DNA from: Gammaproteobacteria bacterium
GTDB taxonomy: Bacteria > Pseudomonadota > Gammaproteobacteria > PS1 > Pseudothioglobaceae
Length of the DNA: 43,300 nucleotides
Direction: 5' to 3'
NCBI GenBank assembly: GCA_029243595.1
Contig: JAQWRQ010000014.1
Coordinates: 1-43,300 of the forward strand
Shown one piece after another: positions 33,832-35,527 of the stretch (its first letter is position 1; each line of letters starts with the position of its first letter). The notes beneath the pieces were generated by a model that did not search any database, was not told the DNA's origin, and was given only the letters and a program-made list of their open reading frames with translations. Made by a program: the position numbers and the translations under genes.

Positions 33832-33837
33832 TATAAT
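33832..33837 (+). promoter_or_regulatory. -10 box of the leuA leader transcript
   Basis: TATAAT at 33832-33837 is seven bases before the leader peptide ATG at 33845, so transcription would start about at the ATG. The -35 region is poor. A ten-base palindrome AATGCGCATT (33835-33844) overlaps the expected start site and may bind a regulator. Confidence 0.5.
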
Positions 33838-33844
33838 GCGCATT

Positions 33845-33913
33845 ATGAGTCATCAAGATACCATTTCTCAATTTAAACAAAGCCTCTTGTCTTTGTTGCG
33901 ATTATTACCGTAA
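33845..33913 (+). CDS. leuL: Leucine leader peptide upstream of leuA
   Basis: This 22-residue reading frame is too short for usual gene lists. Six of its last nine residues before the terminal proline are leucine (SLLSLLRLLP), encoded by CTC, TTG, TTG, TTG, TTA, TTA. It ends 81 bases before leuA. Leucine-rich leader peptides ahead of leu genes sense charged tRNA-Leu through ribosome stalling. Its stop codon lies in the loop of a hairpin (33904-33919) whose first arm is made of the last two Leu codons and Pro. It has no ribosome binding site and may be translated from a leaderless transcript. Confidence 0.8.
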   Translation: MSHQDTISQFKQSLLSLLRLLP

Positions 33914-33947
33914 GGTAATCTATCATCTCGACTGGCTGAAAGGCCAG
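33904..33947 (+). promoter_or_regulatory. Two leader hairpins controlling leuA (attenuator-like)
   Basis: Hairpin A is ATTACC (33904-33909), loop GTAA (33910-33913, a GNRA tetraloop containing the leader stop), GGTAAT (33914-33919). Hairpin B is CTGGC (33932-33936), loop TGAAAG, GCCAG (33943-33947). A stalled ribosome on the Leu codons would melt hairpin A. Hairpin B has no T tract after it, so classical Rho-independent attenuation is not apparent. Translational control, Rho-dependent termination or a pseudoknot are alternatives. The leuA ribosome binding site AGGAGAG (33981-33987) is strong and outside both stems. Confidence 0.6.
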
Positions 33948-33994
33948 CACATCTAAAAAACATAAGCAACAAAACAGATACAGGAGAGACAACA

Positions 33995-35527
33995 ATGTCC
34001 GACAAACTAATTATTTTTGATACAACCCTTCGCGATGGTGAACAGTCACCAGGTGCATCAATGACTAAAGATGAAAAGGTACGTATTGCCAAGGTATTGG
34101 AAAAGATGCGTGTCGATGTGATTGAGGCAGGTTTTGCTATTGCATCAGTAGGTGATTTTGAGGCAGTTCAAGCGGTGGCTAACGCCGTACAAGATTCCAC
34201 TATTTGCTCCCTTGCTAGAGCACTAGATAAAGATATTGATCGCGCAGGTGAAGCATTAAAAGGTGCTAATTCAGCTCGTATTCATACGTTTATTGCTACC
34301 AGCGATATTCACATGAAAATGAAGCTGAATATGACGCCAGATCAAGTCGTAGAACAAGCAGTTCGCGCAGTTAAACGTGCTAGACAATATACTGATAATG
34401 TAGAGTTTTCACCTGAGGATGCCGGTAGATCAGATGAGGATTTCCTTTGTCGTGTTATCGAAGCAACAATTGATGCAGGCGCAACTACGATTAACATTCC
34501 TGATACAGTTGGTTACAACATTCCGCACCAATTTGGCGCTACCATGAAGTCACTAATTGAACGAGTTCCAAATTCAGATAAAGCAATTTTCTCAGCGCAT
34601 TGTCATAACGACTTAGGTCTTGCTGTTGCTAACTCGTTGTCAGCAGTACTTAATGGGGCACGCCAAGTTGAGTGTACGATTAATGGCTTGGGTGAGCGTG
34701 CTGGCAACACTTCGCTAGAAGAGTTAGTAATGGCAGTGAGAACACGACAAGATGTATTTGACTGCGATACCAATATTGATTCGACACATATTTTGGCAGC
34801 ATCACGTTTGGTTTCTAGTGTAACTGGGTTTATTGTGCAACCAAATAAAGCTATTGTTGGTGCTAACGCCTTTGCTCATGAGGCAGGCATTCACCAAGAT
34901 GGCGTTTTAAAGCATCGCGAAACTTATGAAATTATGCGTGCTGAAGATGTAGGCTGGAATGCCAATCAATTGGTGCTGGGTAAGCATTCAGGGCGTAATG
35001 CCTTTAAAGTAAGGTTGGGCGAGCTAGGTGTTGAGTTTGATTCTGAAGAAAATTTGAACGATGCCTTTAGACGCTTTAAAGAGCTGGCTGATAAAAAACA
35101 TGAAATTTTTGATGAAGATCTGCAAGCCTTGGTATCAGAAACACAAACTGAGGCGAGCGAGCTAATCAAGCTAGTGTCCTTAAAAGTCTGCACTGAAACT
35201 GGCGAAGAAAATACTGCAACGGTTGTTTTGTCGGTTAACGACAAAGAGCAAACTGCCACTGCAAAAACCTCAGGTGCGGTAGATGCCACTTTTAGTGCAA
35301 TTAGCACTTTGGTAGATTTTGATATCAACCTGCAATTATATTCAGTGTCAAACGTCACTCAAGGTACGGATGCATTGGGTGAGGTTAATGTGCGCCTAGA
35401 GCATGATGGCCGTATTATCAATGGCCAAGGTGCAGATACAGATATTATTACTGCAAGTGCTAAAGCCTACATCCATGGATTGAATAAAATTATGGCGGCC
35501 ACTGATAGGGCGCATCCTCAAATATGA
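33995..35527 (+). CDS. leuA: 2-isopropylmalate synthase
   Basis: The protein has 510 residues (523 in E. coli). The HMGL-like barrel begins [18 protein letters not shown]. The metal ligands lie in [15 protein letters not shown] and [14 protein letters not shown], and a C-terminal LeuA dimer domain with leucine feedback site follows. It makes 2-isopropylmalate from ketoisovalerate and acetyl-CoA. It is the only leuABCD gene seen in the window. It is preceded by a leader peptide and overlaps the next gene by ATGA. Confidence 0.98.

Follow-up and report, generated by a model that had tools for sequence, protein, structure and literature searches.

The leuA gene of the window (the whole stretch of DNA analysed, an entire contig of 43.3 kb that is part of a 1.1-Mb genome) is preceded by a leucine leader peptide frame. 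As read from the compared sequences, the Leu-Leu-Pro-stop end of this leader is folded into a hairpin (hairpin A) that is followed by a second one (hairpin B), and its upstream Leu codons are complementary to the start region of its own leuA in a genus-specific manner. We propose that this region is a cis-acting leucine-responsive leader, which probably controls leuA with a translational output in the window's genus. Leu-rich leader peptides control leu operons through ribosome stalling. The nearest named relatives of the genome are the SUP05-cluster and Thioglobus bacteria, and the SUP05/Thioglobus family of the window is labelled Thioglobaceae here. The gene order is ilvB-ilvN-ilvC-pssA followed by leuA, with the leader between pssA and leuA. 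The NCBIfam scores of leuA are 886 bits for NF002087 (cut-off 729) and 726 bits for TIGR00973 (cut-off 599). The positions of the features are listed in Table 1.

Table 1. Features of the leuA leader region, in positions of the window.
Feature	Position	Strand	Details	Basis
-10 box of the predicted leuA promoter	33832-33837	+	TATAAT	Offset conservation
Leucine leader peptide ORF	33845-33913	+	22 codons and a stop, MSHQDTISQFKQSLLSLLRLLP; ATG 33845-33847, TAA 33911-33913	Sequence, conservation
Helix C, 5' strand (predicted)	33884-33899	+	Upstream Leu codons, CTC TTG TCT TTG TTG C	Minimum-energy fold, statistics
Hairpin A	33904-33919	+	5' arm of Leu-Leu-Pro codons, ATTACC (33904-33909); loop GTAA (33910-33913) holding the stop TAA; GGTAAT (33914-33919)	Covariation
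Hairpin B	33932-33947	+	CTGGCT (33932-33937); GAAA tetraloop; GGCCAG (33942-33947)	Covariation
Helix C, 3' strand (predicted)	33966-33986	+	GCAACAAA...AGA...CAGGAG	Pairs listed, statistics
leuA Shine-Dalgarno sequence	33982-33987	+	AGGAGA, hidden within helix C in the ground-state fold as predicted	Folding
leuA, regulated gene	33995-35527	+	2-isopropylmalate synthase	NCBIfam

Six Leu codons lie among the last ten codons of the leader (CTC TTG, TTG TTG, and TTA TTA), and 81 nt separate its stop codon from leuA. The earlier note had described a leucine leader with six Leu codons near its end, and the frame is found exactly where it had been placed. The identity of the frame as a leader peptide is supported as well, as it is a short Leu-rich ORF before leuA that is kept in relatives.

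We gathered the leuA upstream regions of 74 distinct loci from Thioglobaceae and of 77 from other gammaproteobacteria. They were scanned with a detector that demands Leu-Pro, a stop within eight codons, an ORF having a start, and a hairpin positioned at the Pro codon. This detector was devised with the motif already known and was loosened once; in the loosened form it finds the arrangement at 66 of the 74 and 50 of the 77 loci, respectively, compared with 2 of 1480 and 14 of 1540 dinucleotide-shuffled upstream regions scored with the same loosened rule (0.1-0.9%). The stricter first detector was positive at 47/90 and 32/77 loci, likewise far above shuffles. Only a single site is detected in the window when both strands are scanned. 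An 18-nt consensus pattern of hairpin A is present in 60 of 83 family genomes, nearly always as a single copy, and a reversed control pattern has no match in the 83 genomes. Two genomes each carry a second copy of the hairpin motif, which in one of them adjoins a fragment of a second leuA; these extra copies represent either contamination or duplication. At six loci from some Methylococcales, pssA lies near leuA with no leader seen by eye.

The end of the leader is its most uniform part. Among 62 distinct Thioglobaceae leaders, the codon at position -3 from the stop is Leu in all 62, that at -2 is Leu in 61 (TTG, TTA, or CTG), and that at -1 is Pro in 59, with all four Pro codons used; the stop itself is found in 56. 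The Leu-Leu-Pro-stop codons, which form part of hairpin A, vary almost only synonymously in these leaders. An alignment across related genomes had been suggested as a check of the leader, and both the frame and its terminal Leu codons are retained in nearly all relatives.

Hairpins A and B have exactly the positions that the earlier note had given them, with the stop codon in loop A and the Leu-Leu-Pro codons themselves as the 5' arm of hairpin A, and the compensatory changes that it had proposed to look for are present in both hairpins. Covariation was counted on the pre-specified hairpin structure in place of the output of RNAalifold, which returned zero pairs for a 55-sequence alignment, probably owing to a few misaligned rows. 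In hairpin A, 88% of the alignment cells are paired, and two pairs show UA/CG and GC/AU double changes. All six pairs of hairpin B have changed on both sides, and 70% of its cells are paired in an imperfect alignment. The two hairpins together contain 78 double-changed cells compared with 28 ± 7 in shuffles, and give a covariation of 0.327 compared with 0.201 when shuffled and at most 0.13 when slid, where kinship of the sequences inflates counts of this kind.

The loop of hairpin A should be noted. A GNRA loop as a functional motif was rejected, since the loops of relatives vary (GTAA, ATAA, CTAG, TTAG, and GTA) and only the stop codon is conserved; the GNRA character in the window is incidental. 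Nor is a stop codon within a hairpin unusual, since E. coli pheL shares the layout. The stop in the loop is usual but not essential, as the hairpin persists where the stop is shifted or the frame ends earlier. At six loci the stop lies outside the loop and translation would run on by a few codons through hairpin A, which is kept. In four 1.0-Mb genomes of the genus g2, a leader Arg codon is replaced by TAA and the frame ends before hairpin A; in these smallest g2 genomes the hairpin is largely kept, in some of them as a longer palindrome. One alternative pairing, inspected by eye as a pseudoknot, was not conserved, and two nested hairpins explain the interior of the element.

In the minimum-energy fold, a long-range helix (helix C) between the upstream Leu codons and the sequence ahead of leuA encloses hairpins A and B. 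Its 3' strand spans the gap between hairpin B and leuA and extends into the Shine-Dalgarno sequence, AGGAG included. The fold of positions 33883-33998 has a z score of -4.06, and none of 200 shuffles is equally stable. Since the composition of Leu codons by itself makes them complementary to Shine-Dalgarno sequences, we applied two controls. Compared with synonymous recodings of the same peptide, helix C of the window gives p = 0.05, which is not an independent test, as helices had already been noticed by eye in the region ahead of the Shine-Dalgarno sequence when the 3' target was enlarged to include it; a narrower earlier test on the ribosome-binding site only gave p = 0.19. Values of p < 0.05 were obtained at 4 of 6 loci in g1 (the window's genus), 15 of 22 in g3, 9 of 12 in g5, 1 of 2 in g11, and the single locus in g7, and at no locus in g2, g4, g6, g8, g9, or g10, where loci within a genus are related and their p values are not independent. 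Pairing of leaders with their own leuA start was also compared with that of foreign leaders and foreign tails, giving -16.8 versus -10.6 and -11.1 kcal/mol in g5, -15.9 versus -10.0 and -10.9 kcal/mol in g3, and -14.0 versus -10.2 and -12.0 kcal/mol in g1. Own pairing is thus favoured by about 5-6 kcal/mol in both g5 and g3 and by 2-4 kcal/mol in g1, and is not favoured in g2 or g4. Several helix C positions are occupied by different pair types. A first duplex test, with foreign leaders taken from all clades, gave a mean rank of 0.37 and was confounded by G+C content and by the segment cut-off.

Helix C is absent in the sister genera g2, g4, g8, and g10 and in many other gammaproteobacteria. 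Genera without helix C still keep hairpin A and the Leu-Leu-Pro end. Helix C cannot explain the whole family, because sister genera lack it. Anti-Shine-Dalgarno pairing as a class-wide rule was rejected, with only 19 of 89 loci at p < 0.05 against synonymous recoding, of which g4, g2, and Methylococcales contribute few or none. Pairing of earlier codons in the symbiont genus g2 (TTCTCCTAT) was also rejected, being no better than synonymous recoding (p = 0.08-0.69). At two Thiotrichaceae loci (Thiomargarita), the leader codons TGCCCGTTTGCC have complementarity of about 10 bp with GGGCAAGCGGG just before leuA, and a run of T7-T8 stands between the latter and the leuA ATG. At three Methylococcales loci, the leuA Shine-Dalgarno sequence lies in a small local hairpin (CTCCAT..ATGGAG) and is not paired with the leader.

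The energy for opening the Shine-Dalgarno sequence was calculated with a ribosome-masking model. In the window it falls from 4.1 kcal/mol in the free RNA to 2.0 kcal/mol when a ribosome occupies the Leu codons of hairpin A; one placed at the stop gives 3.0 kcal/mol, suggesting that the helix is then partly opened too. The gain is largest in g5, where the means are 7.3 (free), 3.4 (stalled), and 6.0 kcal/mol (at the stop). The lowered opening cost in the model is consistent with translational attenuation. The earlier note had guessed at a non-classical output; its translational option is supported in the window's genus by the Leu-codon:Shine-Dalgarno helix, and no conserved pseudoknot was seen by eye.

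The promoter bears on how a ribosome would reach the leader. In the window, 7 nt separate TATAAT from the leader ATG, leaders of the family likewise have a spacing of 7-8 nt, and the mean match to TATAAT across leaders peaks at the window's offset. A match of at least five of the six positions that ends 6-9 nt before the most upstream ATG is found in 76% of 68 Thioglobaceae leaders (controls, 1.5-23.5%) and in 51% of 47 other gammaproteobacterial leaders (control windows, 0-8.5%). In most of the listed exceptions, the window among them, the most upstream ATG shares bases with the TATAAT. The -35 element of the window is weak as judged by eye, and no Shine-Dalgarno sequence precedes its leader ATG. 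The usual spacing between a -10 box and the start would place the 5' end of the transcript at the leader ATG itself or up to about 2 nt upstream of it, and the leader transcript is thus predicted from the promoter position only to be leaderless. The promoter and the base stem of Leu codons and Shine-Dalgarno sequence are additions absent from the earlier note.

From these features we infer a leaderless start, ribosome stalling, a direction of control and, in the window's genus, a translational output, which may be combined as follows. Transcription would start at or next to the leader ATG, and a ribosome would load directly on the leader. When leucine is ample, the leader would be read to Leu-Leu-Pro-stop and the ribosome would depart; hairpins A and B would then form, the upstream Leu codons would pair with the stretch before leuA including the Shine-Dalgarno sequence, and helix C so formed would keep leuA translation low. 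When charged tRNA-Leu is scarce, the ribosome would stall on the Leu codons and cover the 5' strand of helix C, by which the leuA Shine-Dalgarno sequence would be exposed. Where helix C is lacking, the conserved sensor must work in some other way, for which the leading candidate, on thin evidence, is Rho-dependent termination.

Several known systems share parts of this arrangement. The LEU element of Actinobacteria has a base stem of Leu codons and leuA Shine-Dalgarno sequence that surrounds a pseudoknot (Seliverstov et al. 2005, PMC1262725); its mechanism is unsettled, as published mutations of the leuA leader in that phylum disagreed with classical attenuation (PMC1262725). The element described here likewise has a leader ORF with Leu codons before leuA, a base stem around internal helices, and no obvious terminator, whereas the LEU element belongs to another phylum and has a pseudoknot interior in place of two simple hairpins, one of which holds the leader stop. 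A base stem of the LEU type is found in the window's genus, g3, and g5, and not in g2, g4, g8, or g10. The functional likeness, judged by description, has apparently arisen by convergence. The wider view, that the element is a leaderless leucine leader with its Leu-Leu-Pro-stop end in a hairpin and with anti-Shine-Dalgarno Leu codons in several lineages, convergent with the LEU element and alternating by genus between translation and another mode of output, is about equally likely to hold or to fail.

Leaderless starts have been described for the S. meliloti trpL leader, whose transcript begins at the ATG (PMC7298713), for the C. diphtheriae ilvB leader (PMC5784534) and, reportedly, for mycobacterial polycysteine ORFs (Canestrari et al. 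2020). These differ from the present leader, leaderless by prediction, in amino acids and taxa. The leuA of Shewanella has a classical terminator attenuator (PMC2659441). Both it and RF00512 resemble the leader region of the window in a Leu peptide before leuA, codons suited to sensing charged tRNA-Leu, and a hairpin made from the coding end, and differ from it in that this region has no T-tract terminator, no Rfam match, and another peptide end. E. coli pheL is similar in its control codons followed by Pro-stop, the stop in the loop, and the leader end as the 5' arm, but differs in using phenylalanine, in its T-run terminator, and in an SD-like AGGAAA before the leader ATG. No Rfam family reached its gathering score in the window or in 20 relatives, RF00512 (Leu_leader) had no match in the window even at E ≤ 10, and the gammaproteobacterial leuA leader element is not in Rfam 15. 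The literature searched, mostly outside subscription journals, yielded no account of the element in these bacteria.

The output of the leader may also be sought in transcription. No terminator-like site was found in the leader region of the window between pssA and leuA, and the absence of a T tract after hairpins A and B in the window, already pointed out in the earlier note, is confirmed; the longest T run after the leader stop is at most 4 at 71 of 74 family loci. The intrinsic terminator with a T tract that belongs to a classical attenuator was not found. An attenuator with hairpin A as the 1:2 hairpin, hairpin B as a remnant of 3:4, and transcription termination as the output is improbable, even though hairpin A is laid out like the 1:2 hairpin of E. 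coli pheL and, as judged by eye, some Chromatiales-like loci allow pairing between the 3' arm of A and the 5' arm of B. In the window this 3' arm is not complementary to hairpin B by eye, so that the two do not look mutually exclusive. The lack of an intrinsic terminator agrees with the proposed translational output, and also with Rho-dependent premature termination of the E. coli tna type, acting with the same leucine leader: a ribosome leaving after the stop would expose a G-poor stretch behind the leader, which would be shielded as long as a ribosome stays on the terminal Leu codons. Conservation is highest in the two Leu codons just before the stop, also in lineages without helix C, and C exceeds G from hairpin A to the Shine-Dalgarno sequence at 88% of loci and 93% of family loci. 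However, the C-G excess of the window is ordinary, being reached by 21% of random windows, the stretch is short and A-rich, and the genus-matched helix between Leu codons and Shine-Dalgarno sequence is left unexplained. We regard this termination as unlikely for the window.

Other explanations dispense with stalling by leucine starvation. A nascent peptide ending in R-L-L-P may arrest the ribosome at the stop, perhaps in a leucine-sensing manner, and Leu-Leu-Pro-stop is indeed conserved as amino acids with synonymous variation of the codons. Against this, relatives that keep the hairpin read beyond Pro (LLPSGR, LLPSGNL, or LPAGR before the stop) or stop before it, the upstream residues differ among clades, and the need for C-C in the stem would account for Pro as well; such arrest is distinctly improbable. 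Translation of the leader might promote coupling or reinitiation on leuA with no sensing of leucine, as both lie on one predicted transcript, but the gap of 81 nt exceeds the peak at 10-13 bp that has been reported for proteobacterial leaders (PMC4833913) and the conserved Leu codons would go unexplained, which makes this very improbable. Short ORFs frequently arise randomly; a chance ORF with functionless hairpins is nevertheless scarcely credible, being refuted by conservation as seen in the detector counts, the covariation, the synonymous codons, and the once-per-genome pattern.

If the proposed leucine-responsive control of leuA is true, it would place leucine leader control of this gene in Thioglobaceae, that is, in SUP05, Thioglobus, and related symbionts. 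It would also offer a second and unrelated system in which to test the open mechanism of the LEU element. Sister genera with and without the helix between Leu codons and Shine-Dalgarno sequence would further provide a natural comparison, in which the output changes while the sensor stays fixed.
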